NCBI RefSeq assembly: GCF_011758745.1
Contig: NZ_JAANOV010000001.1
Span: forward strand, 1,488,001 to 1,552,000
DNA length: 64,000 bases
Direction of reading: 5' to 3'
Origin: Amycolatopsis granulosa
GTDB taxonomy: Bacteria > Actinomycetota > Actinomycetes > Mycobacteriales > Pseudonocardiaceae
Shown here: positions 40,908 to 55,690 of the stretch, piece by piece
How the letters are laid out: every line of letters begins with the position of its first letter
How positions within the stretch are numbered: position 1 is the first letter of the stretch
The notes under the pieces: generated by a model
The model's input: the letters and a program-made list of their open reading frames with translations, nothing else
Databases searched by the model: none
What the model was told of the DNA's origin: nothing
Made by a program: the position numbers and the translations under genes

Positions 40908-41255
40908 TCAGCGATCGTTCTTGAACTTCCACTTACCGCAGACCATGTTGGCGCAGGCGTCGATCGTGATCATCTTCCCCTCGGGAAGGTTTCATTCTCC
41001 GCCCTGCGAAGCAGACCTGGAATCGCAGGTACCGTTGCCGTATTTCGCCCAGAACTCGTACCTCTGGATCTTCGAGTCCTCGGTGAACACCCGCAGGTGC
41101 GGCTTGAAGCCGTCCGCCTTCGTGTCGCAGATCGAGATGATGTCCTCGTGCACCTTCACGTAGACCTTGAAGTCGCCGGCCTTGCCCAAGACGGTCAAGT
41201 CACGCCGGAGGTGGGCGCCGGCGGAACCGGGCCCGGCCTCGGCGACAGCGATCAC
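40908..41255 (-). pseudogene. Broken paralogue of the small secreted protein
   Basis: Read from 41255, 87 codons resemble the mature part of the protein at 39973-40380: GDFKVYVKVHEDIISICDTKADGF aligns with GDFTIYVKEYGDVVSICDTKADGK. After GGE there is an in-frame TGA (40992-40994). The same frame then continues as NLPEGKMITIDACANMVCG to a second stop, matching NLTEGKRYTVTGCAWGCG. The frame is therefore intact apart from one nonsense codon. No signal peptide is left at the N-terminus, so it also lost its start region. Confidence 0.75.
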
Positions 41256-41845
41256 GAGGTCGGGTAGAGGCGCCCCATCAGTTCCAGCACCTCGTCGATC
41301 ATCGCGCGGGCCTTCGCCTTCGACGGCGCCGCCGCCACCTCACGCCCGGCTTCGGTGGCCATCGCCGTCAGGCTCAGCACCAGCATGTCGCTCAGCGGCC
41401 GGGTGTGGCCGTTGACCAGCGTCGAGTTCGCGTGCAGCCATTCCCGGAACCGCTGCCGGGTGAGCAGCCCGAACCCGGCGGGCCCGCTGCCGGACAGGAA
41501 GACCCGCGCCAGTTGCCGTTCCTCCCAGCACCCGTCGAGGTAGGCCCGGGTGCCCGCGATGAACAGCCGCAGCGCGTCCTCCTCCCCTGCCGCCAGCGCG
41601 GTCCGGAACGCCCGCGCCGACCGGTGCTGCTGCCGCCGCGTGTACTCGTCGTACAGCGTGATCCACAGGTCCGCCTTGGCGGTGAAGTGGTGGTAGAGGC
41701 TGCCGATGCTCGCGCCCGCCCGCTCGGCGATGTCGACCAGCTTGGCGTCCTCGTAACCGGAGGCGACGAACACCTCGCGGGCGGCGTCGAGCAGCGCGGC
41801 CCGCGTGATCTGGGCTCGCGTGCTGCCGGTGGTGGCCTCGGTCAT
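41252..41845 (-). CDS. TetR-family transcriptional regulator
   Basis: 197 residues. HTH: TRAALLDAAREVFVASGYED, then DIAERAGASIGSLYHHFTAKADL. The C-terminal domain is helical (DALRLFIAGTRAYLDGC and onward). Its target is not evident: the pseudogene downstream is co-directional and there is nothing divergent within 190 bp except non-coding sequence and a small HTH gene. Confidence 0.9.
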   Translation of the reverse strand: MTEATTGSTRAQITRAALLDAAREVFVASGYEDAKLVDIAERAGASIGSLYHHFTAKADLWITLYDEYTRRQQHRSARAFRTALAAGEEDALRLFIAGTRAYLDGCWEERQLARVFLSGSGPAGFGLLTRQRFREWLHANSTLVNGHTRPLSDMLVLSLTAMATEAGREVAAAPSKAKARAMIDEVLELMGRLYPTS

Positions 41846-42041
41846 ACCCCGATTGTGCCGGACGGCGCGCTGCGCGCCGGTCCCGGCGTGGGATCAGCCC
41901 CGCCCGGACACCGGCGGGCCTGCCCGGCTGGGTGCCGGTGGATGGCGGGCTCCGACCGACGCAACCGGCTCCACCCGGTCTACTGTGGACAATCCGGGAG
42001 GCGGTATGGCGCGCCGCCGCGCGGGACTCGGCCCGGCCGGG

Positions 42042-42236
42042 CTAGATCATCTCCTGCCGGACGGCCCACACCACGGCCTGGATGGGGGTCGCCACGCCGA
42101 GGCGGTCGCAGATCCCCCGCACGCGGCGCCGCACCGTGCGCCCGGACAACCCCATCCGGCAGGCCACCTCGTCGGGCGACAGCCCCTCGGCCAGCAGGCG
42201 CAGCAGGAGCAGGTCACGGCGTGGCAGCTCGATCAC
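42042..42236 (-). CDS. Stand-alone HTH protein (LuxR/sigma-type, ~64 residues)
   Basis: I start at the GTG read from 42236, 6 nt after AGGAG. The frame is open to an ATG at 42341, but that ATG would overlap the start of the divergent gene. The product is little more than one HTH: LPRRDLLLLRLLAEGLSPDEVACRMGLSGRTVRRRVRGICDRL, ending in TPIQAVVWAVRQEMI. It closely resembles the protein at 49993-50217. No receiver or ligand domain is present, so it may act by binding DNA alone or with a partner such as the divergent TPR protein. Confidence 0.7.
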   Translation of the reverse strand: MIELPRRDLLLLRLLAEGLSPDEVACRMGLSGRTVRRRVRGICDRLGVATPIQAVVWAVRQEMI

Positions 42237-42339
42237 CTCCGGCTCCTCTCCCACACCGGAATCGTGATCGCCGGGCCACGGCCGGTCAAGGACGGAACGG
42301 GGTTGACCTTCGAGCAGGTCGAGGTCCCAGGCTGGCGTC

Positions 42340-42732
42340 ATGAGCCGAGAAGAACTGACCCGGGCGTTGCAGGCGGACCCGGCGGAGGCGCGGCGGATCC
42401 TGGCGCGGGTGTGGGAGACGGGTTCCCCGGTGGACCGGTGCGCGGCGGCACACTGGCTCGCCGACCGGCAGGACTGCGCGCGGGACGAGCTGGCGTGGGA
42501 TCTGCGCGCACTGGAGGCGGCCCGGGCCGCGGAGCCGGCGGAGGTGCGCGGGTTCTTCCCGTCGCTGCACCTCAACCTCGGTGACGTGTACCGCAGGCTG
42601 GGCGATCTGCCCCGCGCACGCGAGCACCTGGCCGCGGCGCAGGCCGTGCTGGACACCCTCGCCGACGACGACTACGGGCGGATGATCCGTGGCGGCGTGG
42701 CCCGGCTGGCGGACCGGCTCGGACAGGGGTGA
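42340..42732 (+). CDS. Tetratricopeptide-like protein
   Basis: 130 residues, all helical. The pattern FFPSLHLNLGDVYRRLGDLPRAREHLAAAQAVLDTL is a TPR unit; the N-terminal half (LTRALQADPAEARRILARVWETG) looks like a degenerate one, with VDRCAAAHWLADRQDCARDELAWDLRAL between. TPR proteins bind peptides or partner proteins. It is divergent from the small HTH gene and might regulate it; no enzymatic motif. Confidence 0.75.
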   Translation: MSREELTRALQADPAEARRILARVWETGSPVDRCAAAHWLADRQDCARDELAWDLRALEAARAAEPAEVRGFFPSLHLNLGDVYRRLGDLPRAREHLAAAQAVLDTLADDDYGRMIRGGVARLADRLGQG

Positions 42733-42752
42733 CGGGCGCGAAGCCACGTGGA

Positions 42753-42784
42753 GGTCCGGCCCGGCGTGCCCGCCGGGCCGGACC
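42753..42784. terminator. Strong bidirectional stem-loop
   Basis: GGTCCGGCCCGGCG (42753-42766) and CGCCGGGCCGGACC (42771-42784) form a perfect 14-bp stem with a 4-base loop between the convergent TPR and isomerase genes. Confidence 0.7.
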
Positions 42785-42790
42785 CGTCCC

Positions 42791-43696
42791 TCACCCCAGC
42801 CGGAGCGCCGCCAGGTAGTCGTGCATCCGGCCGGCCCGGGAATCGGTCAGCGGGTTGCTCTGGTCGTCGTTTTCGATGATGAACTCCCGCACGCCCAGCC
42901 GCGTCGCCGCACCGAGGATCGTGCGGTAGTCGATCACGCCGGTGCCGAGGTCGGCGAGGTTGCCGTGCGCGTCCAGGTCCTTCACGTGGGCCAGCAGCAT
43001 CCGGTCCCGGTTCGCCCGCATCAGCTCGACGTTGTCCTGCGCGCTCAGGCCCGCCGCGGACGACCAGCCCATGTCCAGCTCCAGGTACAGCAGCGACGGA
43101 TCGGAACCGTCGAGCAGGATCTGGTAGAACGTGCGGCCGTCCGGACCGCGCCCGAGGAACTCGCCGGTGTGGTTGTGGTACCCCAGCTTCATCCCCGCGC
43201 GCCGGATCTTCTCCCCCGCCCGGTTGAACGCCGGACCGGCCGCGGCGAACCCCTCGGCGGTGTCCGGCACGCCGCCCGGGCACACGAGGTAGCGCTGGCC
43301 GAGGATCCGCCCCATCTCGATCAGCTGGTCCAGCCGCTCCGGGTCGGTGAACTCGGCATACCCGTGGTGGCTGGACACCGCGCGCAGCCCGTAGGAGTCC
43401 AGCAGGGGCCGGATCTGCCGCGCGTGCGCGGGGTCGGTGCCGCCGGGGAAACCGGCGAACTCCAGGTTGCGGTACCCGGCCCGCGCCAGCGCCCGCAGCA
43501 CCGCCTCCGGCTGGGCCATGAACGCGTCCCGCACCGAGTACATCTGCAGCCCGATCTTGGTGTTCGGGATGCGACCTCCACCGGCGGCGGCCGCGGACCC
43601 GGCCCCGATCCCGGCCGCCGCGACCCCGGCCGCCGTCGCCGCCACCCCGCGCAGGAACCGCCGCCGGTCCACGACGACGGGCGTTCCACCACACAT
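42791..43696 (-). CDS. Secreted (Tat) sugar phosphate isomerase/epimerase-like TIM barrel
   Basis: 301 residues, ATG read from 43696 after GGGAGGAGGAG. Twin-arginine signal DRRRFLRGVAATAAGVAAAG. The barrel (AP_endonuc_2 family) has KIGLQMYSVRDAF, SSHHGYAEF, GYHNHTGEF, LELDMGWSS and HVKDLD, i.e. the Glu/Asp/His metal ligands. Relatives act as 3-keto-sugar isomerases or 2-dehydro-sugar epimerases and often sit beside ThuA, GFO/IDH or DUF1080 genes, as here. Export by Tat suggests it folds with its metal in the cytoplasm and works outside. Confidence 0.85.
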   Translation of the reverse strand: MCGGTPVVVDRRRFLRGVAATAAGVAAAGIGAGSAAAAGGGRIPNTKIGLQMYSVRDAFMAQPEAVLRALARAGYRNLEFAGFPGGTDPAHARQIRPLLDSYGLRAVSSHHGYAEFTDPERLDQLIEMGRILGQRYLVCPGGVPDTAEGFAAAGPAFNRAGEKIRRAGMKLGYHNHTGEFLGRGPDGRTFYQILLDGSDPSLLYLELDMGWSSAAGLSAQDNVELMRANRDRMLLAHVKDLDAHGNLADLGTGVIDYRTILGAATRLGVREFIIENDDQSNPLTDSRAGRMHDYLAALRLG

Positions 43697-43713
43697 CTCG
43701 CTCCTCCTCCCGC

Positions 43714-44652
43714 TCAGTGCTCGTGCACGCCGTCCGGCATGGTGCCGTCGGCGTTGCGGACCAGGAACATGCCGGCCATGCCCATGTCCGAGTGGTTCTG
43801 GACGTGGCAGTGGTACATCCACATGCCCGGTCCGACGCCCTCCCCGGCGATCACCTGGAACCCGAACGACACACCGGGGTTGAGGTCCTTGATGTCGATC
43901 AGCGGGCTGTTGTCGTACTCGGAGAGCCGCGTGCCGGTCCGGTTGTCCAGCCAGCGGTGCCCGTGCAGGTGGAAGGTGTGGAAGTTGCTGCCGTGCCCGA
44001 TCGCGATCCACTCGACCCGTTCGCCGAGGTTCGCCTCGAACGTCGGCACGGCGTCGCGGGAGCGGTTGTTGATCATCATGTCGTTGAACACCACGACGAA
44101 CTGGCGCCTGGGCAGCAGATCACCCCGCCGCCGCACCACCAGCGCACCGTAGAGTCCTTTGAGGATGCCCTCGGTGCCGTGCTCGGTGCCCATCGCGTGG
44201 TCGTGGTAGTGCCAGTACCCGGCGCTGCCCTCGGCCCACGACCCGTCCGCCCGCCGGTAGGAGGTGTGGCTGCGCCAGGTGTAGTGGCGGGTCTGGCCGG
44301 GCATCACCGCGGAGTCGTTCATCAGGGTGCCGTCGGAGTGGACGTCGTAGTCGACGCCGTGCGGGTGCAGCGACAGCACCCGGTCGGTGGTGTTGACCAG
44401 ATCGATCTCGAGGGTGTCGCCCTCCCACATCTCCAGCACCGGACCGGGCACGGTCGCCGCGCCCGGCGCCAGCCCGTACCCGTACAGCTGGTCGGAGATC
44501 TTCTCGGCGTACACCGTCAGGCGCCGGGTCTCACCCTGCGGGCGGGCCGGCGCGGCGGTCGCCACCCCGGGCACGGACACGGACACGGCCAGCCCGGCGG
44601 CCGCGCTGCCGAGCACGGCGCGGCGGGACAAACCGCGGGACTTGGGAAACAT
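43714..44652 (-). CDS. Two-domain multicopper oxidase (small laccase)
   Basis: 312 residues with a Tat signal (SRRAVLGSAAAGLAVSVSVPGVATAAP). All four copper-binding stretches are visible: SLHPHGVDY, GYWHYHDHAMG, FHTFHLHGHRW and the type 1/trinuclear MYHCHVQNHSDMGMAGMF, with Met as axial ligand. Two cupredoxin domains rather than three mean that, like Streptomyces SLAC, it should assemble as a trimer. It oxidises phenols, metals or a protein partner with O2. 17 bp downstream of it lies the isomerase gene and 24 bp upstream the cupredoxin-Ig gene. Confidence 0.92.
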   Translation of the reverse strand: MFPKSRGLSRRAVLGSAAAGLAVSVSVPGVATAAPARPQGETRRLTVYAEKISDQLYGYGLAPGAATVPGPVLEMWEGDTLEIDLVNTTDRVLSLHPHGVDYDVHSDGTLMNDSAVMPGQTRHYTWRSHTSYRRADGSWAEGSAGYWHYHDHAMGTEHGTEGILKGLYGALVVRRRGDLLPRRQFVVVFNDMMINNRSRDAVPTFEANLGERVEWIAIGHGSNFHTFHLHGHRWLDNRTGTRLSEYDNSPLIDIKDLNPGVSFGFQVIAGEGVGPGMWMYHCHVQNHSDMGMAGMFLVRNADGTMPDGVHEH

Positions 44653-44676
44653 GAAGAATCCTTTCGCCGGAGGAAG

Positions 44677-46299
44677 TCACGCCATGCGCCGGTCGGCCGG
44701 CTGCTGCTCCTGCCGGGACGGACCGGTGGAGGACACGACGGTGAAGGTGACGGTGCCGGTCGCGCTGGTGTTGCCGGCCAGGTCGGTGGCCCGGTAGCGG
44801 ACGGTGTGGGTGCCGAGGTGGTCGATGACGAACGGTTTGTGGTAGCGGGTGAACACGGAACCGTCCACAGAGTACTGGACGCGTGCCACTCCGGACGCCT
44901 CGTCGGTCGCCATCAGGGTGACTGTCACCGGACCGAGGTAGTCCCACGACCAGTTCTGCGCACCGGACAACTGCGCGGTGACGACCGGCGGGGTCACGTC
45001 GCCGGCGGCGGCGATCGTGAACGAGGCCGTCTGCGCCGCGCTGGTGTTGCCGGCCCGGTCGGTCGCCCGGTAGTGCACCGTGTGCGGGCCGACCGCGGTG
45101 ATGGTCACCGGCTGGCCGTAGCGGACGTATCCGGCGCCGTCGAGGTCGTACTCGACCGACGCGATGCCCGATTCGGTGTCGGTGGCCGTCAGCACGAGGG
45201 TGGCCGTGCCGAGGTAGCCGCCCTCGGTGTTCTGCTCGCCGTCCAGCCGGGCGGTGACGAAGGGCGCGACCACGTCGCCGAGCGGGTCCACCCGGACCGT
45301 CAGCGTCTTCGGCTCACTGGTGTTGCCCGCCTTGTCGGCGGCCCGGTAGATCAGCGTGTGCGTGCCGGCCTGCAGGACGATCGGCTGGCGGTAGGTGAGG
45401 TACGCGCCACCGTCCACAGTGTACTCTACCGCCGCCACACCGGATCCGGTGTCGGTGGCGATGAGGGTCACCGTGGCACTGCCGGCGTAGTTCCCGGCGT
45501 CGTTGCGCTGACCCGCGACGCTCGCGGTCACCTGGGGCGGCGTGGTGTCCTCCGCGGGCTGCACGACATTGATCACCACGGTCTTCGGCTCGCTCGCGTT
45601 GCCCGCCTCGTCCGTGGCCCGGTAGTGCACGGTGTGCGCGCCGGGGGTGGTGATGGTGACCGGCGCGGTGTAGGGGCGGTAGGTGTCGTCGTCGAGTGTG
45701 TACTCGACGGTGGCGACGCCGGAACGGTCGTCGGTCGCGGTCAGGGTGACGGTGGCGCTGCCGACGTAGTTGCCGTCGCCGTCGGTCCTGCCCGCGACGG
45801 TCGCGGTCACCTCGGGCGGTGTGGTGTCCTGCTGGCCGCCACCGGTGGTGACGACCAGCTCGCCGCTCATCGTGTGCCCGGGCATCGCGCAGTAGTAGCG
45901 GTACTTTCCCGGAGTCAGGGTGACCGGCACCTGGTGCAGCCCGTGTTCGGCGTCCAGCGGGCTCGCGGTGATGTTGACGGCGACGTCGTGGTTGTAGCCG
46001 GGAGTCGACGTGTCGAACGTCAGCGTGTGGGTCATGCCGGTCGTGTTGCCGGTGGCGGTGCTGTTTTCGAACACGATGGTCGCCGCGCCCGCCACGGCAC
46101 TCGCCGGTGCCGAGGCGTAGGCGGTCATGCTGTCGTTCGCGGTCCAGGTGAGGACCTGCTCGGCGGCGGGGGTGACGTCGCCGGCCGTGACGGGCGCCGG
46201 ACCGGCGATCGCGGTGGCCGCCGTTGTCGCCGTGGCACCGGTGAGCAGGCACAGTCCCGCGATCCCGGTCACGAGCAGGCGGCGTGGGAAGACACGCAT
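44677..46299 (-). CDS. Secreted cupredoxin with four Ig-like repeats
   Basis: 540 residues, ATG read from 46299 after GAGGAGAAGG. Sec signal to about residue 32. Residues ~40-155 are a plastocyanin-like domain with Cu ligands His in GMTHTLTF and Cys/His/Met in YYCAMPGHTMSGELVV. Four Ig-like/OmpL47-type repeats of ~95 residues follow, each starting DxTPPxVTA and containing SGVATVEYTLDDD and HTVHYRATDEAGNAS. The repeats are stalks or adhesion modules. The copper domain could shuttle electrons between the neighbouring glucose-dehydrogenase-like protein and the laccase (inference). Confidence 0.88.
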   Translation of the reverse strand: MRVFPRRLLVTGIAGLCLLTGATATTAATAIAGPAPVTAGDVTPAAEQVLTWTANDSMTAYASAPASAVAGAATIVFENSTATGNTTGMTHTLTFDTSTPGYNHDVAVNITASPLDAEHGLHQVPVTLTPGKYRYYCAMPGHTMSGELVVTTGGGQQDTTPPEVTATVAGRTDGDGNYVGSATVTLTATDDRSGVATVEYTLDDDTYRPYTAPVTITTPGAHTVHYRATDEAGNASEPKTVVINVVQPAEDTTPPQVTASVAGQRNDAGNYAGSATVTLIATDTGSGVAAVEYTVDGGAYLTYRQPIVLQAGTHTLIYRAADKAGNTSEPKTLTVRVDPLGDVVAPFVTARLDGEQNTEGGYLGTATLVLTATDTESGIASVEYDLDGAGYVRYGQPVTITAVGPHTVHYRATDRAGNTSAAQTASFTIAAAGDVTPPVVTAQLSGAQNWSWDYLGPVTVTLMATDEASGVARVQYSVDGSVFTRYHKPFVIDHLGTHTVRYRATDLAGNTSATGTVTFTVVSSTGPSRQEQQPADRRMA

Positions 46300-46370
46300 G
46301 GTTTTCCTTCTCCTCGCAGGGTGGGATCCGGTGGCGCCACCACGGCGGCGCCACCGGAAAGCGGGTGTCG

Positions 46371-49300
46371 CTACAGCTGCCGCACCCGGATGTTGCGGAA
46401 CTCGATCACGTCGCGGTCGCTGTGGTTCTGCAACCCGATGAACCCGCTGAAGAACTGCCGCAGGTCCGTCGGCGGGTCACCGGCGCGCGAGGACTGCTTG
46501 CCGGGCGTGTTGTCGAACTCGTTGATCACCACGCCGTTGCGGATGATGGTGTAGTGCTGGCCGGTCACCCGCACCTCGTAGTCGTTCCACACACCCTTCG
46601 GCGTCGGCATCGCCCGGTCCAGGCCCAGCTGGGAGAAGTTGTAGACCGAGCCGGTCTTCTGCGCGTCGCCCGCCGGGTTGTCGTTGATCTGGATTTCCTG
46701 TCCACAGTAGATCGCGACCCACGCCTGCGAGGTCCGCGCGGAGCCGACCGTGCCGCAACTGCCCGGCGGACGCTGCTCCAGCGGCGTGCGCGGATCGGGG
46801 AACCGGGTGAACACCCCGCTGTTCGCGCGGTCACCGGCCGGTGCGACATCCCGGAACTGGAGCCGCACCGAGAAGTCGGCGAACGACTTGCCCGAGTACC
46901 ACAGCATTCCCATGCCGCCGGCGCTGTGCAGGGTGCCGTCGGATTGCAGGTCGAACCGGCCGGCCGGCGCCTGGCTCCAGCCCGCCGTGGAGGTGCCGTC
47001 GAAGATCCACTCGTAGCCCGTCGCGCCGGCCTTGCCCACCGCCGACGACGCCGCCGCCCGGTTCAGCTGGTTGACCTCCTTGTCCGACAACAGGTTCACG
47101 CCGCGCAGCTGCGTGGCCAGCCCGGACACGTACGCGGTGAACGCGTCGTGACCCGGCCAGGGCCGCTCGTCGTCGAGCAGGTCGTTGATGGTGCAGCCGA
47201 GTCCGAGGTTGCGGTTGGGCACCGCGGTCTCGCCGTCCAGGATCCACACCCGCTGGCGGGCGTCCGGGGCCGGGCAGCTCACGGTCACCGGCAGGTGCCC
47301 GGTGGCCTTCGCACCGTCGGCGTAGGTGACCTCCAGCGTGGCGTAGTAGGTGCCGCCACGCAGGTAGGTGTGCTTCGGGTTGGCCTCGGTGGACGTGGCG
47401 CCGTCACCGAAGTCCCACCGCCACGCGACACCGCCCGCCCGGGTGCCGGTGAACGCCATGGTCATCGGGCCGGCCTGCGTGGTGGCCCCCACCGTCGCCG
47501 CGTCCGGCGCCGGGGTGGCCGCCCCGCCGTGGTAGGTGATGCGCAGCAGCTTCTGGTTGGGGTCGAGGCTGAAGAACCCGCCGGCGTAGTCCAGCAGGTA
47601 CAGCGCGCCGTCCGGGCCGAACTTGGCGTCCATCCAGCTCTGCAGGCCGGTGTCACCACCGCCGCCCTTGATGATCTGCCGCAGGTCCTCGGCGAACGCC
47701 GGTGCGCCCTGCGCGGGCACCCGGGCCGGGTCCAGTGTCACCGCGATCCGGTTGTTGCCGTTGGACTCGTCACCGATGAACCACTTGTCCTCCCAGTACG
47801 CCGGCCACGCGACACCACTGCCGGTGTTCGCCTCGGCGCGGTGGAAGGTCGGGCCGGACATCACGGCCTGGCCGCCGCCCTTGAGGTAGGGCTCGGTGTA
47901 GGTCGCGTCGGACTGGACGTAGGTCGGCACGCCGCTGCCGTCGGCGCGCGCCGGGTAGACCGGGCCACCGCCCTGCGGCGAGTACCAGATGGCGTTGTCC
48001 CGGGCCGGCGGGATGTCCACCAGGCCGGTGTTGCGTGGCGAGGTGTTCTTCAGGCCGGTGCAGTCGTACCAGCCGGTGAGGACGCTCGCGTCGGTGTCGC
48101 TCCGGTCCCGGTAGGGCTGCCGGTTGCCCATGCAGTAGGGCCAGCCCTGGTTGCCCGCCGACGTGATGACCGTGGCCGTCTCGTACTTCGCGGGCCCCAG
48201 GTCGGGGTTGGGGGCGCCGGCGTCCGGGCCGACCCAGCCCGCGGTCAGCCAGTCGTGCTGCTTGTCGATGGCCAGCCGGGCGATGTTGCGCACGCCCATC
48301 ACGTAGATCTCCGGCCGGGTCTTGCCGCCGCCCTGCTCGGCTCCGGTGAACAAGTTGCCCGGCGGGATCGTGTAGGTGCCGTCCGACTCCGGGTGGATGC
48401 GCAGGATCTTGCCGTTGAGGTCGTTGGTGTTGCCCGACGTGCGGCGCGCGTCCTGGAACGAGGTGCCCTGGTACTCGGCCGTCCAGTTGTTGCCGGAGTA
48501 GCCGCCGGAACCGCCGGAGGAGTTGTTGTCGCCGACGCCGACGTAGAGGTTCCCGGCCCGGTCGAACGCCATGCCGCCACCGGCGTGGCAGCAGCTGTGG
48601 ATCTGGGCGTTCCAGTGCAGCAGGTCCTTGCGGGTGGACTGGTCGATGGTCTGCCGCGCGGCGTCGTAGGTGAACCGGGACACCGTGCGCTGGCCGATCC
48701 GCTTCTCCCGGTCGATCGAGTCGTGCGGCATCCAGTAGACGTAGATCCAGCCGGTGCGGGCGAAGTCCGGGTCGAGGGTGATCCCGACCAGGCCCTCCTC
48801 GTTCTTGACCAGCTCGTCACCACTGCCGCGGTTGCCCATCACCGCGAGCGTGGTGAGGAGCTTGACCTGCTTGGTCCTCGGATCCCACTGGTGGATCGTG
48901 CCGCAGCCCAGCCCCACGTTCGGGTCGGCCCAGTCCACGACCGGGCCGGACGGGCAGGCGGCCTTGCCGATGTAGAACACCGTGCCGTCGGGGGCGATGG
49001 TCAAGCCGTGCGGCTCGCCGATCTGGTCCAGCTGGCCGGGCTGGTTCTTCCCGGTGAGCCGTTCCACGGTGTAGTTCGAGGCGATCGTGGCCTTGCAGTC
49101 GCCGCGCACCATGCCGGTGGTCCACCGGATCGCACCCAGCAGGTGGCCGCGGAAGAGCTGGTCGGTGGTGTAGCTCTCGGTGGTGCGGCCCATGCCGGTG
49201 TAGAAGGAGCGTCCGCCGGAGTAGTCCCGGCACCACGACACCGGGTGGAAGGCGCCGTTGGCACCCTGTCCCGCCTGGTACTTCCACTCCTCCACCTGCG

Positions 49301-49934
49301 CGATGGTGTGCACCTGGCCGAGCGGGTTCGGGCTCCAGTTCAGCCACTGGTCGGAGCGGGTCCAGTTCAGCGGCAGCCCGGCGTTGGCGGGATGCTGCCG
49401 GTCGGTGACATCGACCACGGCCTGCTGGACGGTGTCCGGGCCGGCGGCCGGCCGGGTGCCGATCAGCCCCGTGAACCAGTCCGATGTGGACTGTGCGCGG
49501 GCCGCGTCGTGGACGCCGACGAACCCGTTGCCCGCGGCGACGAACGCCTTGAGCGCGTCCTCCTGCGCGGCGCTGAGCGTCACCGAGTCGGCGGACAGGA
49601 ACACCACACCCCGGTAGCGGGCCAGGTTGGCGGGGGTGAACGCGGCGGGATCCGCCGACACGTCGGCCTGGAACCCGCCGGTGCGGCCGAGGTCCTGGAT
49701 CGCCGCGGCGGCCGTGTTCACCGGGTCGGCCTGCCGGTCGGACGGGCCGTGGAAGACCAGGACCCGCACCGGTTCCGGAGTCTGCGCGGCCGGTTGCGGT
49801 GCGGGCCCGGGTGCCGGAGCCGCGAGCGCGGGCGCCACGGGCACGGCGGTCAGCAGGACCAGTCCGCACAACTGGGCCAGTACCCGCCGGAGTCTCGAAG
49901 TTCTGGATCGGTTCGGTTCACGTCTGTGCCGCAT
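46371..49934 (-). CDS. Secreted ThuA - PQQ glucose-dehydrogenase-like - PKD - DUF1080 fusion
   Basis: 1187 residues with a Sec signal (to about residue 39). In order: a ThuA-like domain (~55-265: [30 protein letters not shown]), a PQQ-dependent sugar dehydrogenase beta-propeller (~300-750: [56 protein letters not shown]), a PKD domain (~765-850: [24 protein letters not shown]) and a C-terminal DUF1080/3-keto-disaccharide hydrolase lectin-like domain (~960-1187: [51 protein letters not shown]). Such fusions probably oxidise a glycoside and cleave the keto-glycoside outside the cell. First gene of the operon. Confidence 0.9.
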   Translation of the reverse strand: [1187 protein letters not shown]

Positions 49935-49992
49935 ACCATCCCTCGCCTGGAGTTCGGTGTTTCCTGGGCTCGCGGGGGTTCTCCCGCTCGGA

Positions 49993-50217
49993 TCAGATGA
50001 GCCTGCGCCGCGCGGCCCAGACCACGGCCTGGATCGGGGCGTGCACGGCCAGCCGGTCGCAGATCCGCCGGATCCGGCGCTGCACCGTGCGGTTGGACAG
50101 GTTGAGCCGCCGGGCGACCGCGTCGATCGGCAGGCCGTCGGCGAGCAGGGCGAGCACCGCGAGTTCCTCGGCCGCGAGATCGGGCGCTCTGAGGGGTTGG
50201 TCGAGCGTGGCGGTCAC
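49993..50217 (-). CDS. Stand-alone HTH protein, paralogue of the one at 42042
   Basis: 74 residues from a GTG. One HTH: LAAEELAVLALLADGLPIDAVARRLNLSNRTVQRRIRRICDRL, ending APIQAVVWAARRRLI. The last 30 residues are nearly the same as those of the protein at 42042-42236. It lies 58 bp upstream of the large ThuA/dehydrogenase gene in the same direction, so it may regulate the keto-sugar operon. The two paralogues bracket that operon. Confidence 0.75.
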   Translation of the reverse strand: MTATLDQPLRAPDLAAEELAVLALLADGLPIDAVARRLNLSNRTVQRRIRRICDRLAVHAPIQAVVWAARRRLI

Positions 50218-50600
50218 TTCCCGCCTGCCCTAAGGCCGGCCGGCAGCGTGATTCGGGATCGGATCAGCATTGATCTCTGCCCTCCCAGCAGCGGGCGATT
50301 GATGCTCTGGGGAAACTAACCACTTCTGCGCACGGTAGGAAGATGTTTGTCGCGAACTGGCCACTGGAACGCCGCGTGCAGGAAGAAGTGACTCCGTTCG
50401 GACCACAACGTTCGGCGGATGCCGCTGACTCACCCGGCGAGGGCCAGCTCCAGCCGGGCAAGCCGGCCGGGATCCGCGATCAGCCGGTAGCCGGTGATCC
50501 GCGGAAACGGTCACCTTCGTCGAACGGGCGCCGCGGCTCGTGGTGGGCGACAGGGAGGACCGGTAACCTGACGGCGAGCCCGGCGATCTGGGGGGAAGCC
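50218..50600. other. 383-bp gap without a convincing gene
   Basis: AT-richer stretch near 50260-50350 probably holds the promoter for the HTH and ThuA-fusion genes on the minus strand. No inverted repeat or RNA structure stood out. In-frame codons ahead of 50601 do not look coding. Confidence 0.55.
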
Positions 50601-51197
50601 ATGGGGGCGCGGCACTACTTGCGGAACGAGCGCCGCACCTTCGCCGCGATCGGACTCGCACTGCGCGGCCGGAAAGCGCTCGACGACGACGCCGTCGCGC
50701 TGCCGTACTCGGCCGCGCAGCGGTCGTTCCTGGTCGTGTTCGCGGTGGTGACGGTGGTCGAGGGGCTGCTGTTCGCGCTGGTGAGGTTCGGTCCGGCGGT
50801 GCACGTCGTGCTCGCCGTCCTCGAGGTGTACTCGCTGCTACTGGTGGTCGGCCTGCTGTGCTCGGCGACGGTGTACCCGCACTCCGCGTCCCCGCGCGAG
50901 GTGCGCGTGCGGCACGGCGCGCACCTCGACGTACCGGTCCCGGTGACGGCCATCGCCGCGGTCCGCGCCCGCAGCGAGGACCACTCCGGGAAGCGGGCAC
51001 TCACTCTCCAGGACGGCACGTTCACCGTGGCGCAGTCCTGGCAGACGAACGTCGTCCTCGAACTGCGGCACCCCGTCACCGTCACCCGCCCGCTCGGCCG
51101 CACCGGCGAGGCCCGGGTGATCAAGTTCTACGCCACCGATCCGCGGGCCGCCGTGGCCGCGATCGAGGAGGTCGCGCAGCGCCGGCGGGCGCGGTGA
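50601..51197 (+). CDS. Two-helix membrane protein of unknown function
   Basis: 198 residues from the ATG at 50601 after GGGGGGAAGCC. Two adjacent membrane helices (FLVVFAVVTVVEGLLFALV, VVLAVLEVYSLLLVVGLLC) are followed by a soluble beta-rich domain of about 100 residues (VRVRHGAHLDVPVPVTAI and onward, ending AVAAIEEVAQRRRAR). No recognised family; it resembles actinobacterial membrane proteins that carry a PH-like domain. Single gene. Confidence 0.7.
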   Translation: MGARHYLRNERRTFAAIGLALRGRKALDDDAVALPYSAAQRSFLVVFAVVTVVEGLLFALVRFGPAVHVVLAVLEVYSLLLVVGLLCSATVYPHSASPREVRVRHGAHLDVPVPVTAIAAVRARSEDHSGKRALTLQDGTFTVAQSWQTNVVLELRHPVTVTRPLGRTGEARVIKFYATDPRAAVAAIEEVAQRRRAR

Positions 51198-51226
51198 GCG
51201 ATCCCCGCCGGCGCCTTCCGGGTCCG

Positions 51227-51469
51227 CTACGCCTGGGTCACCTTCGGTTCGCGGGCCCGGTACCCGTCCGGCCCGCTGTGCGAGCGCGTGAACGGCAGAC
51301 GTCCGCCCACCTTCTCGCCGACCTTGGCGCGGACGAACCCGGCCGCGCCCTGGACGGCCGGGTGGTCGGCGACCGCGCGGTAGGTCCGCACGATCTGCTC
51401 GTACCGCGCACGACCGGCCCGAGCGCCGAGCACGTACCCGACGCCCGCGCCGAGCAGGAAAGTCTTCAT
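51227..51469 (-). CDS. Small YtxH-like membrane-anchored protein
   Basis: 80 residues, ATG read from 51469 after AGGAGG. The N-terminus MKTFLLGAGVGYVLGARAGRARYEQI is the glycine-rich single helix of the YtxH/DUF3618-like proteins common in actinobacteria. The remainder is polar. Function unknown; stress or envelope role often suggested. Convergent with the membrane protein gene at 50601. Confidence 0.75.
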   Translation of the reverse strand: MKTFLLGAGVGYVLGARAGRARYEQIVRTYRAVADHPAVQGAAGFVRAKVGEKVGGRLPFTRSHSGPDGYRAREPKVTQA

Positions 51470-51611
51470 GCGCGCCTCCTGGTGTCTCCGCCTCGATCAC
51501 CATTGTCCCCCAATCCCCGGACCGGTGCCGGGGGGTGCTTGCAGAGCGCGATCGCCGATGAGCTAAAGTTCTGTCCCGTCAGCCCGGAGCGATCCGGGCG
51601 CGGCAGAGCAT

Positions 51612-51686
<75 letters not shown>

Positions 51687-51692
51687 GCACAA

Positions 51693-51722
51693 ACAGGGCC
51701 TCGGAGATCATCCGGGGCCTGT
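51693..51722 (+). terminator. Stem-loop supplied by the element after tRNA-Asn
   Basis: ACAGGGCCTCGG (51693-51704) pairs with CCGGGGCCTGT (51712-51722) with one bulge and one wobble pair; gtgttg follows. It lies between the tRNA and the convergent integrase and may end both transcripts. Confidence 0.5.
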
Positions 51723-51741
51723 GTTGCATCCAGGGGTGACA

Positions 51742-52902
51742 TCAGTTCCCCGAGGCCAGCTGGTTCATCCGCTCGGCCATCTGCCGCTTCGCCTGGTCCA
51801 GCACGTGACCGTAGATGTTGGCTGTGGTCGTGATCGAGGCGTGGCCCAGCTGCTCCATCACCTCGCGGATGGTGGCCCCGTCTTCGAGGAGAAGCGTCGC
51901 GCCAGTGTGTCTTAGGTCATGCACTCGGCTGCGATCGATGCTCGCTCTCCGTAGCACCCGGTCGAGCATGGTGTTGACGTTCCGCGGCTCGACCACCCTC
52001 CCCGTTCGGGTGATGAACACGAGGTCGTCCGGCTGCCCCGGTGCCGGGTTGAGGGGCTCGGTCAGCCGCTCGGCGGTGTCCCGGCGGTGCGTCTTGAGGG
52101 CCGCGAGGCAGACGGGCGGCAGGTAGAGCACGCGCCGGGACTTCTTGGTCTTGGGCTCCCCGAACATCAACTGGCCGCGCACCCGCTGGACCGTCCGCCG
52201 GACGTGGAACTCCCCCGTCGTCAGGTTGATGTCCGACCAGGCCAGCCCCAGAACTTCGCCTTTCCGGAGTCCGGTGGTGATCAGCACGAGCCACAGCGCC
52301 TGCAACCAGTGCTCCGAGGCGTGCCGGATGAACCGCCGCGCGTCGGCCGCCGACACGGGCTCGACCTCGAAGTGATCCCGCGACGGCGCCTTGACCAGGG
52401 TGGTCACGTTGCGTCCGATCAGCTCTTCCCGCACGGCGTTGTTAAGCGCACTCCGCAACACCTCGAACACGTTCTGCACGTAGCGCGCAGACAGCGTCCG
52501 GCCGTGGATCGTCTCCATCTTCCGGAGCTTCGCGAGCATCTTCCGGACATCGGCCGGCGTCAGAGCGTTCAGCTTCCGCGACCCGAGCAGCGGCTTGAGG
52601 TACCGCCGGACGACGACCTCGTACCCCGAGTAGGTCGACGCCCCACGCTCGACCCGCACGATTTCGTCCAGCCAGTAGTCGAGGTAGTCCCCCAGCTTCA
52701 TGGACGAGGAGATCGACGGCACGCCCTTGCGGTTGTTGTCGAGCAGCTCGATGCGCTTGTTGTTCACCTCCTCCCAGGTCTTGCCGTAGACGTACTTCCG
52801 CTGCCGGGTTCCGTGCACCGTGAGCACGTAGACCGCCGCCTGGTAGCGCCCGTCCTTGCGCTGCACGATGGTGCCCATCCCGTTCGCCGCGCGCTTCGCC
52901 AT
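51742..52902 (-). CDS. int: Site-specific tyrosine recombinase (AICE integrase)
   Basis: 386 residues from the ATG that overlaps the xis stop (TGATG). N-terminal AP2-like arm-binding region (GTIVQRKDGRYQAAVYVLT), SAM-like core-binding domain (~70-170: SMKLGDYLDYWLDEIVRVER), catalytic domain with Arg213 (TTGLRKGEVLGL), His328-x-x-Arg331 (HDLRHTGATLLLEDGA), His354 and Tyr364 (LGHASITTTANIYGH). It recombines attP with the tRNA-Asn attB. Its 3' end is 56 bp from attL, the usual pSAM2-type arrangement. Confidence 0.95.
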   Translation of the reverse strand: MAKRAANGMGTIVQRKDGRYQAAVYVLTVHGTRQRKYVYGKTWEEVNNKRIELLDNNRKGVPSISSSMKLGDYLDYWLDEIVRVERGASTYSGYEVVVRRYLKPLLGSRKLNALTPADVRKMLAKLRKMETIHGRTLSARYVQNVFEVLRSALNNAVREELIGRNVTTLVKAPSRDHFEVEPVSAADARRFIRHASEHWLQALWLVLITTGLRKGEVLGLAWSDINLTTGEFHVRRTVQRVRGQLMFGEPKTKKSRRVLYLPPVCLAALKTHRRDTAERLTEPLNPAPGQPDDLVFITRTGRVVEPRNVNTMLDRVLRRASIDRSRVHDLRHTGATLLLEDGATIREVMEQLGHASITTTANIYGHVLDQAKRQMAERMNQLASGN

Positions 52903-53081
52903 CACGCCGCCTGTGCCGTCAAGGATCGGACGTACTCCTCGATCGCGTCCCGGGGAATCCGGCGCGAGCCGAACACCTTGACGGACCGCAACTGTCCTAA
53001 CCGGATCAAGTCGTAGACCCGCGTCCGGCCGATGCCGAGCAGGTGCGCGGCTTCGTCGACGCGGAGCAGGATCGGTTCCAT
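52902..53081 (-). CDS. xis: Excisionase (MerR/excisionase-type HTH)
   Basis: 59 residues, ATG read from 53081 after AAGGGAGAAGC. The winged HTH LRVDEAAHLLGIGRTRVYDLIRLGQLRSVKVFGSRRIPRDAIEEYV is that of helix-turn-helix excisionases. It bends DNA at att sites and directs integrase to excision. Translational overlap with int keeps the two in balance, and it is 11 bp downstream of the replication gene. Confidence 0.92.
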   Translation of the reverse strand: MEPILLRVDEAAHLLGIGRTRVYDLIRLGQLRSVKVFGSRRIPRDAIEEYVRSLTAQAA

Positions 53082-53092
53082 TGCTTCTCCCT

Positions 53093-54580
53093 TCAGTGGC
53101 TTTCGATCTCTTCTCGCGCAACATGTTTGCGCTCCCGCGCCTTGGCCGCGGCCGTGTTCGCCAAGGCGGCGTCGCCGATGGTCAACCACCCGACGCCATC
53201 GAAGATCCAGTTGAGAGTGACCGCCGACTGTTCGCCGTCTTCATCCGCATCGACCGGTAGTGCTTCTTCGGGGTGTTCGCCGCGCTGGAATGCCTTACGG
53301 ACAGCCCTCAGCGCTGTGAGGGTGGTGGAGTAACGGCGGCTCTTGGTGGAGAAGTGCCCGCCGAAGCCGAGCATGTGCGCCCACTTCTGGAGCTTGCCCC
53401 AGCCTTCAGCCCAGTCGGTGCGTTGTTGTGTGCTGGTGTAGTAGAAGGGCCGCTGTCCGAGTCGCCAGCAGGCGACGAGCTGCCGTGATTGGTGGTTGTC
53501 GCGGTCCGCGTGCATGTTCGCGTCGAGCTGTGTCAGGCGTCGGGAGACGTGCCCGGCCTCTTCAGTGGCTTTGGTGGCGTATTTGGCGAGGTAGGCCGCC
53601 ACTGCCGTAGTCGTCAGCGCCCCGCGGTCGTCCTGGTCGCTCACGTTGAGGTGGACGGGGCGAATGTCGCGCTGCTTGCCCCAGGTCAAAGTCCAGCCAG
53701 TGCGTTGCCGGGGGTGGGGTGCCGTGGTGAAGCGCGTGACGGTCGCAGCGGTGTCGATGAGGCTGCTCAGCAGCTCCGGCGTGATACTCGGGTCCGGCGT
53801 CACGATGGTATCCGGATCAGCCGGGTTGAGCCCGTCGAGCCTGATCAGGGCGTGGAAGTGCACAACGCCGCGCCGCTGGTACTCGGCCACTTTGACGTAG
53901 GAGAGCCGGACCTTGACGCCCCGGTCCTTGGCGGCGGTTTTGAGGTAGCGGCTCAGGGTGATCGTGGTGCGCCGCCACAACTCCCCGGCGTGGAAGTTCC
54001 AGACCGCCTGGGCTTCGTAGTCGTAGCAGTCCCGGCAGATCGGCTCCCCCACGCACGAGTCGTCCTCGCCATGCCGGACCCGGCACTCAGTCGAGCGACC
54101 ATGCGGGCAGAGCGGGGCGTACCGCCGGGGTCGACAGGGCTTGACCTGCCCGTTGCTGACCACGCGAGTGTGCACGGCCCCGAAGGCCGGCGCGGTGAGC
54201 GTGACGAAGAAACACGGGTGCTCGGTGACGCTCTCCGGCACGCCCTTGCCGCCGACGAGCCCGGCCTTCACGAGTTGGTAGGTGTCGGCCCGGTAGGTCT
54301 CGGCGCAGGCGGGACAGACCGAGGCGCGGCGGTTCTTGCAGGCGACGTAGAGCAGGCCGTCGGGCATGTCGTCGGTGACCCGTTCGACCTCACCGCCGCC
54401 CCAGTCGGCTTCGACTCGGAGGCGTACTGGTCGGGAGCAGGGGGCCGCGGGCATGACGTGGGCGAGCCACCAGCGGTAGTCGGGGCTGGTCGCGCGGCGG
54501 AGGATGTCCGGCTCGGCGACGGCTCCCAGCCCCACCACGGTCTTGGTGGTGGGGCTGAGGGTCATGGTCGAGACGGTCAA
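53093..54580 (-). CDS. repSA: RepSA-like rolling-circle replication initiator
   Basis: 495 residues from a TTG read from 54580 (an ATG 15 bp later is possible). N-terminal zinc-binding cysteines (SVCPACAETYR at ~88-97, CPHGRSTEC, ICRDCYDYEA). The metal-binding HUH motif is HFH at 241-243 (GVVHFHALIRLDG), and AYLAKYATKATE (329-340) carries the candidate nicking Tyr334. It nicks the element's double-strand origin after excision to start rolling-circle replication. Its product should also drive xis and int expression, which lie directly downstream. Confidence 0.92.
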   Translation of the reverse strand: MTVSTMTLSPTTKTVVGLGAVAEPDILRRATSPDYRWWLAHVMPAAPCSRPVRLRVEADWGGGEVERVTDDMPDGLLYVACKNRRASVCPACAETYRADTYQLVKAGLVGGKGVPESVTEHPCFFVTLTAPAFGAVHTRVVSNGQVKPCRPRRYAPLCPHGRSTECRVRHGEDDSCVGEPICRDCYDYEAQAVWNFHAGELWRRTTITLSRYLKTAAKDRGVKVRLSYVKVAEYQRRGVVHFHALIRLDGLNPADPDTIVTPDPSITPELLSSLIDTAATVTRFTTAPHPRQRTGWTLTWGKQRDIRPVHLNVSDQDDRGALTTTAVAAYLAKYATKATEEAGHVSRRLTQLDANMHADRDNHQSRQLVACWRLGQRPFYYTSTQQRTDWAEGWGKLQKWAHMLGFGGHFSTKSRRYSTTLTALRAVRKAFQRGEHPEEALPVDADEDGEQSAVTLNWIFDGVGWLTIGDAALANTAAAKARERKHVAREEIESH

Positions 54581-54592
54581 GGGTGCTCCGGG

Positions 54593-54844
54593 TCAGGCGA
54601 ACAGATGCGCGTAGGTCTCCACGTCCCGGGTGGTGGCCCAGCGCCAGCCCTCCAGGAGTTCGCCGGTTGGCGAGTAGGCGGGCAGCAGCGCGTAAGGGTC
54701 GAACGCGGAAATCGGCAAGGCGACGAAGCCGCCGATTTCGGGGGCGTGGGCCAGGCGGGCGACGTCGACGGCGTTGTTGTCGCCGGTGACGAAGACCCAT
54801 AGCTGCTCGGGGGTGAGGGCCATGGGTTTGGTTGCGGTCAGCAT
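54593..54844 (-). CDS. Small AICE protein of unknown function
   Basis: 83 residues (MLTATKPMALTPEQLWVFVTGDNN and onward). No recognised domain; acidic and partly hydrophobic with an ALPAYSPTGELLEGW-like segment. It lies between the TraB-type and Rep genes in the same direction. Proteins of this size and place recur in pSAM2-type elements, where some are called Spd-like, but homology is not demonstrated here. Confidence 0.65.
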   Translation of the reverse strand: MLTATKPMALTPEQLWVFVTGDNNAVDVARLAHAPEIGGFVALPISAFDPYALLPAYSPTGELLEGWRWATTRDVETYAHLFA

Positions 54845-54883
54845 GAGGGCAGTCCTCTCCTGCGAGTCGAATTGCGAATGGGA

Positions 54884-55690
54884 TTAAGCGGTCTTGCGAG
54901 TGCGGAGTTGGCGCGCGTATTCGACGAGGGAATGGATGTGCTCGTCGGTGAGATAGGCGGTCTTCATCCGCCGTGGGGTGCCACCTTCGGCGAGCAGCAG
55001 GGCGACGCCGCGTTCCTCCGGCGCGATGTTGGAGGCGTCGAATCCCTGCGCGGCCCAGCCCCGGCCGAGAATGATGTCCGAGCTGGAATCAGTAGTGCAG
55101 CGATAAGCCATGCGATACCCGAACAGGTCCCGCAGCGAAGTGGGGATGATGTCGGCCGAGGGCCGTTGAGTGGCAGCGACGACGATGATCCCGGCAGCCC
55201 GGCCCCGGGCCACGAGGTCGCGCAGCAGGCGGACGAACTGTTCTTGCTGGTCCTTGGTGCCCATCGTGGCCGAGAACAGGGCCAGTTCATCGATCACAAG
55301 CATGATCACGTCGAACGGGTCGTGACGATCGATCTTGCGCCGCCGCACCCGGTCCAGCTCGACATACCGGCGGTCCATCTCCGCCTGCAACCGCTCCAGC
55401 GCGGTCAGAGCGCGTTCGATATCGGGGCCGACGAACAGGTCGGCCACCTCGCGCCACAGGCCCAACTCGACCTGCTTGCCGTCGAACAGCCACAACGACA
55501 GGTCCGGGCACAGTGCCCCATGAGCAACGATGTTGTTCAGCCCGACCGACTTTCCGGCACCGGGCTCACCAGCGAGCAGAATGTTGCGCCAGATCAGCTC
55601 GATGTCGACGCCGTAGCCGTCTTCGTAGATACCGAGGTGGACAGGGTCATAGATCGAAAGCCCAGCCACCGGAATCGTGTTCTTCCGCAT
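54884..55690 (-). CDS. traB: FtsK/SpoIIIE-type DNA translocase (TraB-like transfer ATPase)
   Basis: 268 residues. Walker A GEPGAGKS at 41-48, Walker B VIMLVIDELALF with Asp134-Glu135, then an arginine-rich sensor stretch (VARGRAAGIIVVAATQRPS), as in FtsK_SpoIIIE. It lacks the N-terminal membrane part and the C-terminal gamma-type winged helix is very short (TPRRMKTAYLTDEHIHSLVEYARQL). In AICEs one such protein moves double-stranded DNA between hyphal cells at clt sites. The membrane anchor seems to be the separate gene upstream. Confidence 0.9.
   Translation of the reverse strand: MRKNTIPVAGLSIYDPVHLGIYEDGYGVDIELIWRNILLAGEPGAGKSVGLNNIVAHGALCPDLSLWLFDGKQVELGLWREVADLFVGPDIERALTALERLQAEMDRRYVELDRVRRRKIDRHDPFDVIMLVIDELALFSATMGTKDQQEQFVRLLRDLVARGRAAGIIVVAATQRPSADIIPTSLRDLFGYRMAYRCTTDSSSDIILGRGWAAQGFDASNIAPEERGVALLLAEGGTPRRMKTAYLTDEHIHSLVEYARQLRTRKTA

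Follow-up and report, generated by a model that had tools for sequence, protein, structure and literature searches.

We analyzed a 64-kb stretch (hereafter the window) of the 5.62-Mb single-contig genome of Amycolatopsis granulosa. The minus strand of the window carries four genes between positions 42791 and 49934. The first in order of transcription (46371–49934) codes for a secreted 1187-residue protein that joins a ThuA domain, a six-bladed propeller of the GSDH type, a PKD domain, a small shared domain, and a DUF1080 domain. The second (44677–46299) codes for a secreted cupredoxin with four OmpL47-type immunoglobulin (Ig)-like repeats (540 residues), the third (43714–44652) for a two-domain small laccase of 312 residues with a twin-arginine leader recognizable by eye, and the fourth (42791–43696) for an AP_endonuc_2 TIM barrel with a leader of the twin-arginine translocation type (RRRFLRG), which we regard as an accessory member. 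The intergenic gaps of 71, 24, and 17 bp make it likely that the four genes form an operon. The TIM-barrel gene likely starts at the ATG at 43696, which follows a GGAGGAGG ribosome-binding site. A previous, sequence-only reading of this DNA had described a four-gene operon with these domains, and the coordinates and domain content agree with that description.

The fusion protein begins with the ThuA domain (residues 57–272, 49119–49766; Pfam PF06283, 192.5 bits) and continues with the GSDH-like propeller (residues 285–806, 47517–49082; Pfam GSDH, 68.9 bits), the PKD domain (residues 809–884, 47283–47510; PF18911, PKD_4, 49.4 bits), and, toward the C terminus, DUF1080, also named 3keto-disac_hyd (residues 976–1185, 46380–47009; PF06439, 120.4 bits at a cut-off of 26.8). 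The ThuA and DUF1080 domains are each the sole copy above the family cut-off in the host genome. PKD and DUF1080 are joined by a domain without a name of about 80 residues (47010–47273), marked by a conserved D and the motifs CTINDL, HxxF, and AAxSxxG, which in many relatives recurs in the cupredoxin-Ig protein, at its C-terminal end or close to it. This domain has no Pfam match, and its structural model (predicted local distance difference test, pLDDT, 86.7) finds its best PDB match at an E value of 2.1, hence no confident fold.

The type-1 (blue) copper domain of the cupredoxin-Ig protein spans 45835–46194. Its ligands His, Cys, His, and Met are at least 99% conserved in 89 sequences, and its score lies below the Pfam Copper-bind cut-off (17.1 versus 21.2 bits; a long relative in locus L034 reaches 20.7). 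The OmpL47-type repeats of the same protein are recognized by NCBIfam. The laccase matches Pfam Cu-oxidase_2 and Cu-oxidase_3, and its best PDB match is the small laccase 3t9w (597 bits), followed by other two-domain laccases. Its copper motifs HPH, HYH, HTFHLH, and HCHVQNHSDMGM are at least 97% conserved in 93 sequences; by analogy with its relatives, it would form an oligomer with O2-reducing activity.

Evidence for a functional connection between these proteins comes from the conservation of the cluster. When 197 genomes of the class were searched, clear score gaps set the propeller clade and the small laccases each apart from weaker matches (659 to 246 bits and 316 to 69 bits, respectively). 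Above these gaps, the propeller occurs in 31 genomes and the laccase in 32 genomes with 42 copies. Each of the 31 propellers shares its contig with a laccase at a distance of 1.1–2.9 kb, and 31 of the 32 laccase genomes hold the pair, although genomes of one family do not count as independent samples. The possibility that the laccase is a random neighbor can be rejected, since every one of the 31 propellers has one within 3 kb. Seen from the laccase, 34 of the 42 copies lie near a propeller.

We compared 80 named loci, the best 80 of at least 583 relatives, which according to their record titles span 28 genera, including Streptomyces, Micromonospora, Amycolatopsis, Nonomuraea, Cellulosimicrobium, and Jiangella. 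All 80 have ThuA; 79 have DUF1080, 78 the laccase, 75 the cupredoxin, and 12 the TIM barrel. In 55 loci, the laccase gene is an upstream neighbor in the same orientation as the propeller gene; in 21, it is upstream in the opposite orientation, and in two it lies downstream, always 1.1–4.3 kb from the propeller. The varied positions within this distance show that proximity has survived several rearrangements. The two loci in which no laccase was found are L057, which covers only 1.2 kb upstream, and L071, which covers 6.1 kb upstream and 10 kb downstream. The cupredoxin is missing from L057, L058, and L083, all of which end at a contig edge, and from L071 and L094.

Within the order, a search of 150 genomes found full-length relatives of the fusion protein, 67–91% identical, in 13 other genomes. 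One of these genomes has a second copy, 56% identical, which brings the number of loci to 14, 13 of which contain both the laccase and the cupredoxin-Ig gene and 11 the TIM barrel. Six control loci with distant propellers contain neither laccase nor cupredoxin (0 of 6 each) and the TIM barrel in four cases. A comparison of open reading frames (ORFs) across the fetched loci showed the cluster genes to be widely shared; other neighbors are rarer and mostly confined to one genus or to the control loci. The idea of the complete four-gene set as the conserved unit must be rejected in view of the TIM-barrel counts (12 of 80 and 11 of 14), and we consider this protein an accessory because so few of the named loci contain it. 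The data strongly support a core of laccase, cupredoxin, ThuA/propeller, and DUF1080, and with it the partnership of this cluster with the laccase. Conservation of the gene set, on which the sequence-only reading had staked its interpretation, was thus found for the core across 28 genera, and for the propeller–laccase pair in all 31 propeller genomes of the class, and not for the TIM barrel.

Some small laccases keep the company of the cupredoxin alone. G164, the 32nd laccase genome of the class, holds three laccases, none of them with this propeller and two of them adjoining a cupredoxin-Ig gene. Extra laccase pairs in G231 and G280 likewise adjoin a cupredoxin-Ig gene away from the propeller. 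Loci L142, L143, and L145 each contain a tandem pair of small laccases beside a divergent cupredoxin-OmpL47 gene and no propeller; this arrangement is a stand-alone laccase–cupredoxin module.

The domain order of the fusion protein varies among relatives. In 17 of 21 Streptomyces loci, the first protein matches ThuA and propeller only, and the full fusion is found in the other four. DUF1080 sits behind the cupredoxin and Ig repeats in 16 of the 17 short-form loci. The short form also occurs on an annotated plasmid of S. fungicidicus. Twelve of the 13 full-length relatives of the order (L033–L044) carry an extra 100–150 residues or so within ThuA, an insert that looks, as far as we can judge, like a discoidin (F5/8 C) domain and that is absent from the window protein and its 91% identical relative. 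The host genome contains a second propeller protein (L046, C1:35000–53000), 39% identical, with PKD, CBM6, and FIMAH domains. Its gene adjoins another AP_endonuc_2-like TIM barrel, with no laccase or cupredoxin at this locus.

What might the propeller do? An AlphaFold2 model (predicted template modelling score 0.89, mean pLDDT 80) aligned by VIA-align best with 2ism (Z 36.4, root-mean-square deviation 2.3 over 331 residues), followed by 3a9g (Z 36.3), 3das with bound pyrroloquinoline quinone (PQQ; Z 33.8), and sGDH (1qbi; Z 30.1). The protein is therefore modeled as a six-bladed GSDH fold with PQQ sugar dehydrogenases as its best matches. In sGDH, His144 is the catalytic residue, accompanied by the pair Arg228–Asn229 and the calcium ligands Gly247–Pro248 (excerpts of PMC6881810 and PMC6881789). 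The equivalent residues H450, R549–N550, and G580–P581 are invariant in 95 of 95 propellers of the clade, as are two cysteines, C448 and C449, directly before the catalytic histidine. Because peptide patterns (one with HSCCH, one RPEIYVMG) had been used to select the 80 named loci, the invariance in that set of the residues within those patterns is partly built in; in a set of 18 sequences chosen without such patterns, the Cys-Cys-His motif and the other sGDH equivalents are nevertheless present in all 18.

A look beyond the actinobacteria covered five plasmid loci (from Runella, Haladaptatus, Natronococcus, Halocatena, and Paenibacillus) out of 14 matching plasmid records. The protein of Runella slithyformis is a GSDH-PKD-cytochrome c-CBM6 fusion. 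On the Haladaptatus plasmid, a GSDH protein and a ThuA-GSDH protein match plastocyanin/azurin-type domains (36.0 and 28.5 bits, respectively, at a cut-off of 21.2), the second match being one in which no single stretch passes the cut-off by itself; both propeller genes have a TIM-barrel gene and an annotated multicopper oxidase gene in their vicinity. In Natronococcus, the neighborhood of a DUF1080-GSDH gene encodes a TIM-DUF1080 protein and a multicopper oxidase that has a copper-binding domain itself. Since some relatives are thus fused to single-electron carriers, the propeller itself is, by analogy, probably redox active. The Halocatena salina locus (L137) places a related sugar dehydrogenase amid three genes of the sugar phosphate isomerase type, ABC transporters, and a Gfo/Idh/MocA oxidoreductase, which is a possible keto-sugar setting.

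The likely product of the propeller is suggested by its partners. The TIM barrel (AP_endonuc_2 match of 57.3 bits) has 8BVK as its closest solved relative. This structure is that of AtOGE, a manganese enzyme that cleaves 3-keto-O-glucosides by β-elimination (excerpt of PMC10628242). The metal ligands His132, Asp163, His189, and Glu233 of AtOGE correspond to H175, D209, H238, and E276 of the TIM barrel, and the catalytic His134 corresponds to H177. All five residues are invariant in 24 of 24 TIM barrels from cluster loci, including that of the window, although related enzymes with other activities (IolE type, a weak match) may have parts of this site. Judged by these residues, the TIM barrel has retained a 3-keto-glycoside eliminase site. 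In Caulobacter, a DUF1080 protein plays an important part in the use of lactose and has been proposed to hydrolyze 3'-ketolactose; the family also includes the 3-ketotrehalose hydrolase BT2157 (excerpts of PMC9007349). Given DUF1080 in 79 of the 80 loci and the AtOGE-type TIM barrel, the propeller most likely produces a 3-keto-glycoside.

From these observations, we infer that the products of the operon make up an oxidation chain that lies outside the cell and involves no membrane. Within the ThuA fusion, the propeller would oxidize a sugar hydroxyl, most likely at C3 of a glycoside, and pass single electrons in turn to the blue-copper domain of the Ig-repeat protein. The cupredoxin would then reduce the type-1 copper of the two-domain laccase, which would reduce O2 to water. 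DUF1080 would cleave the 3-keto-glycoside, and the TIM barrel, as a manganese-type eliminase/hydratase, would process the product further where present. The genomic linkage, the conserved copper ligands, and the carrier-fused relatives support such an extracellular chain from propeller to cupredoxin, laccase, and O2. Two-domain laccases have a low redox potential of 0.35–0.45 V (excerpt of PMC8236229), which would suit a protein as electron donor. Our confidence that the secreted set passes electrons from sugar to O2 in this order and then cleaves the keto-glycoside stands a little above even; the redox role of the propeller, the order in which electrons travel, oxidation at C3, and the kind of substrate would each follow from the company these proteins keep. 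The sequence-only reading had already connected a sugar dehydrogenase with a copper shuttle and a laccase that reduces O2, and had tied the ThuA, DUF1080, and AP_endonuc_2 families to 3-keto-sugar catabolism. Conservation bears out the first link at the level of genes, with the chemistry of the chain predicted from sequence; the keto-glycoside theme is upheld by DUF1080 and by the AtOGE residues of the TIM barrel.

A number of observations speak against this proposal and must be weighed. Linkage is not perfect: eight of the 42 laccase copies of the class are not near a propeller, and neither propeller nor cupredoxin was found near the second laccase of G176 or the laccase on contig 15 of G164, nor near a plasmid-borne laccase of Streptomyces sp. 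NBC_00316, for which the plasmid record was the sequence covered. Locus L033 contains no laccase, cupredoxin, or TIM barrel, with a complete set (L045) elsewhere in its genome. L094 lacks the cupredoxin despite coverage of 10 kb on either side, and 68 of the 80 named loci yielded no TIM barrel. Outside the actinobacteria, the annotation around the Halocatena relative includes neither an oxidase nor a carrier, and the Paenibacillus relative showed no carrier domain in a scan of three of 11 ORFs of at least 250 residues; carrier fusion is therefore not universal. We found no reported activity for any propeller of the clade. Known sGDH enzymes act on C1, not C3 (excerpt of PMC6881810), which is why the C3 site can only be deduced from the partner proteins. 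Finally, SLAC oxidizes phenols in vitro with no protein donor (excerpt of PMC3918160).

The cofactor of the propeller adds a further difficulty. In sGDH, the PQQ carboxylates are bound by Lys377 and Arg408 (excerpts of PMC6881789 and PMC6881810). The equivalent of Arg408 in the sequence alignment is Met768 in 95 of 95 propellers, and the stretch corresponding to Lys377 (residues 721–728) is devoid of Lys and Arg in all 95. At the position of Arg406, which presumably binds a PQQ carboxylate as well, a basic residue occurs in one of the 95 (Arg, in L045) and in four of 18 when distant propellers are included. In the same alignment, the canonical aldose dehydrogenase of the host (L148), which served as the sole reference for the PQQ residues, retains all of them (LKGQK, RLR). 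No pqqC was found in the host genome or in 29 of the 31 cluster genomes of the class; matches above cut-off occur in the other two and in eight of the 14 cluster genomes of the order, some of them containing stop codons. The profile gave no match in the pqqC control genomes but exceeded the cut-off in 19 of 150 genomes of the order, from which we conclude that the model works. The carboxylate-residue test speaks against a plain PQQ enzyme, and because of these changed residues we do not file the propeller as one. The PQQ label given by the sequence-only reading could not be retained as stated: of the cofactor residues it had asked about, the catalytic His, the Arg-Asn pair, and the Gly-Pro site are invariant, and the positions of Arg408, Lys377, and Arg406 are changed. 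Its interpretation as a whole is partly supported, with the chemistry as a working hypothesis. The alignment gives weak support to a PQQ assignment; the propeller may work like a member of the sGDH fold family, with PQQ bound in an altered way or with something else in its place.

The same residues can be read in favor of a true PQQ dehydrogenase that oxidizes aldoses at C1 to lactones, with scavenged or host-made PQQ and the copper chain as acceptor; DUF1080 would then be a carbohydrate-binding jelly roll. The invariant catalytic His, Arg-Asn, and Gly-Pro residues are those expected of such an enzyme, and the invariant Arg729, adjacent to the Lys377 stretch in all 95 propellers, might substitute for the missing lysine. 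The fungal enzyme CcPDH binds PQQ without Lys377 and with another arginine in place of Arg408, and bacteria that do not make PQQ, such as E. coli, use it from the environment (excerpts of PMC6881789). Scavenging is plausible here because the host has a canonical aldose dehydrogenase yet no pqqC match, and the eight cluster genomes of the order with pqqC might supply their own. The invariant methionine in place of Arg408 is hard to reconcile with this explanation, and the DUF1080 and TIM-barrel partners indicate keto-glycosides, which are not products of C1 oxidation. We consider C1 chemistry with PQQ unlikely.

We consider unlikely a stricter form of the copper-chain proposal, in which actinobacterial small laccases are the terminal oxidases of a dedicated, all-extracellular, C3-oxidizing copper chain and the cofactor of the propeller is not PQQ bound in the conventional manner. 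The invariant Cys-Cys-His motif and Met768 at the propeller center could be a metal site or a vicinal-disulfide redox site. Within this form, parallel chains might exist in haloarchaea, with fused blue-copper domains, and in Runella (Bacteroidota), with cytochrome c, a notion we hold to be doubtful as well.

The altered carboxylate positions are also what one would expect if the propeller were a cofactor-free scaffold. The laccase would then oxidize phenolics or cuprous ions alone, while ThuA and DUF1080 would do no more than bind or trim polysaccharide, bringing the complex to plant cell walls. The Hedgehog-interacting protein, a binding protein, has the same fold; small laccases do oxidize phenols (excerpt of PMC3918160); and the PKD and Ig-like modules and the discoidin-like insert of relatives suggest polymer binding. 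The invariance of seven catalytic-center positions in 95 of 95 propellers would be unusual for a scaffold, even if the SCCH part was selected by pattern, given that it holds in 18 of 18 pattern-free sequences. Cytochrome c or blue-copper domains occur as fusion partners of related propellers, and the conserved DUF1080 and cupredoxin would be left with no explanation. A scaffold role appears improbable to us.

Alternatively, the cupredoxin and laccase could manage extracellular copper, with the sugar genes linked to them by shared regulation only. In S. coelicolor, SCO6710 is listed as a glycosyl hydrolase and as putatively repressed by CsoR (excerpt of PMC6414726). This gene lies two places from SLAC (SCO6712) by gene number, and we infer that it is the cupredoxin-DUF1080 gene. 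A scan for a simple CsoR-like palindrome, with the motif taken from general knowledge, covered 96 sequences and the window stretch 41001–52000. It returned two matches in the 96 sequences, both in flanks off the cluster genes, and none at 41001–52000. A CsoR operator at the operon was accordingly set aside, with the caveat that such a simple scan is weak evidence against copper regulation. Copper supply to copper enzymes would produce the same regulation in any case, and fusions of propellers to electron carriers are not accounted for. We regard copper homeostasis as the sole function of the cupredoxin and laccase as very improbable.

The surroundings of the operon contain further features. 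Directly upstream lies a 74-residue minus-strand ORF (49993–50217) that by its look is a candidate for a LuxR-type helix-turn-helix regulator. In the region 51612–55690, a tRNA-Asn gene precedes genes for a tyrosine integrase, a replication initiator of the pSAM2 type (RepSA), and an FtsK-like ATPase; the region looks like an actinomycete integrative element that begins just beside the operon. The GC content drops from 0.70 at 50–52 kb to 0.52 at 60–62 kb.

SLAC and its relatives are much studied and account for dozens of PDB entries. What bacterial laccases do in vivo is called obscure and speculative in an excerpt of PMC7036934 and mostly unknown in one of PMC3527528. The near-perfect genomic partnership described here gives the laccase a specific and testable role, that of the terminal oxidase of extracellular sugar oxidation rather than of a lignin or phenol oxidase. 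If this holds, an oxygen-driven reaction that makes no hydrogen peroxide could initiate extracellular glycoside breakdown, and the natural electron donors for laccase electrodes would be identified. The cofactor of the propeller clade may also differ from its annotation. In titles and abstracts of the open-licence literature, among the matches listed, we found no sugar-oxidizing partner set for a small laccase, no laccase–ThuA set, and no set of sugar dehydrogenase, cupredoxin, and multicopper oxidase.

By sequence and copper motifs, the window laccase belongs to the SLAC-type enzymes, represented by SCO6712 of Streptomyces coelicolor, Ssl1, and EpoA. In S. coelicoflavus, the laccase gene is embedded in the same cluster, and the encoded laccase is a full-length match (734 bits) to PDB 3cg8, which we take to be S. 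coelicolor SLAC. These laccases have been studied as free-standing phenol oxidases; here, the laccase appears within a gene set for sugar oxidation. The propeller shares with sGDH, ASD, and the fungal AA12 enzymes the six-bladed fold, the catalytic His, the Arg-Asn pair, and the Gly-Pro calcium site. Unlike these enzymes, it has changed equivalents of Lys377, Arg406, and Arg408 and a Cys-Cys pair before the catalytic histidine, and its clade is fused to ThuA and often to DUF1080. With the 3-keto-glycoside enzymes AtOGE, the BT2157-type DUF1080 hydrolases, and LacABC, the cluster has in common the TIM-barrel site residues and the DUF1080 family. The 3-keto pathway of A. tumefaciens oxidizes with a flavoenzyme (excerpt of PMC10628242), and oxidation by LacABC is membrane-bound and faces the periplasm (excerpt of PMC9007349). 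In contrast to both, the oxidation step here would be extracellular and copper-linked.

Transfer of electrons from a substrate dehydrogenase to a small copper protein has precedent in methylamine dehydrogenase, which reduces the blue-copper protein amicyanin; that chain is periplasmic and ends in cytochromes and a membrane oxidase. The fungal enzymes CcPDH (AA12-AA8-CBM1) and cellobiose dehydrogenase offer a functional likeness, since in both an extracellular sugar dehydrogenase hands electrons to a carrier domain (excerpts of PMC6881789 and PMC6881810). Their carrier is a heme b domain and their known partner a lytic polysaccharide monooxygenase, whereas in the actinobacterial cluster these parts would be played by the cupredoxin and the laccase.

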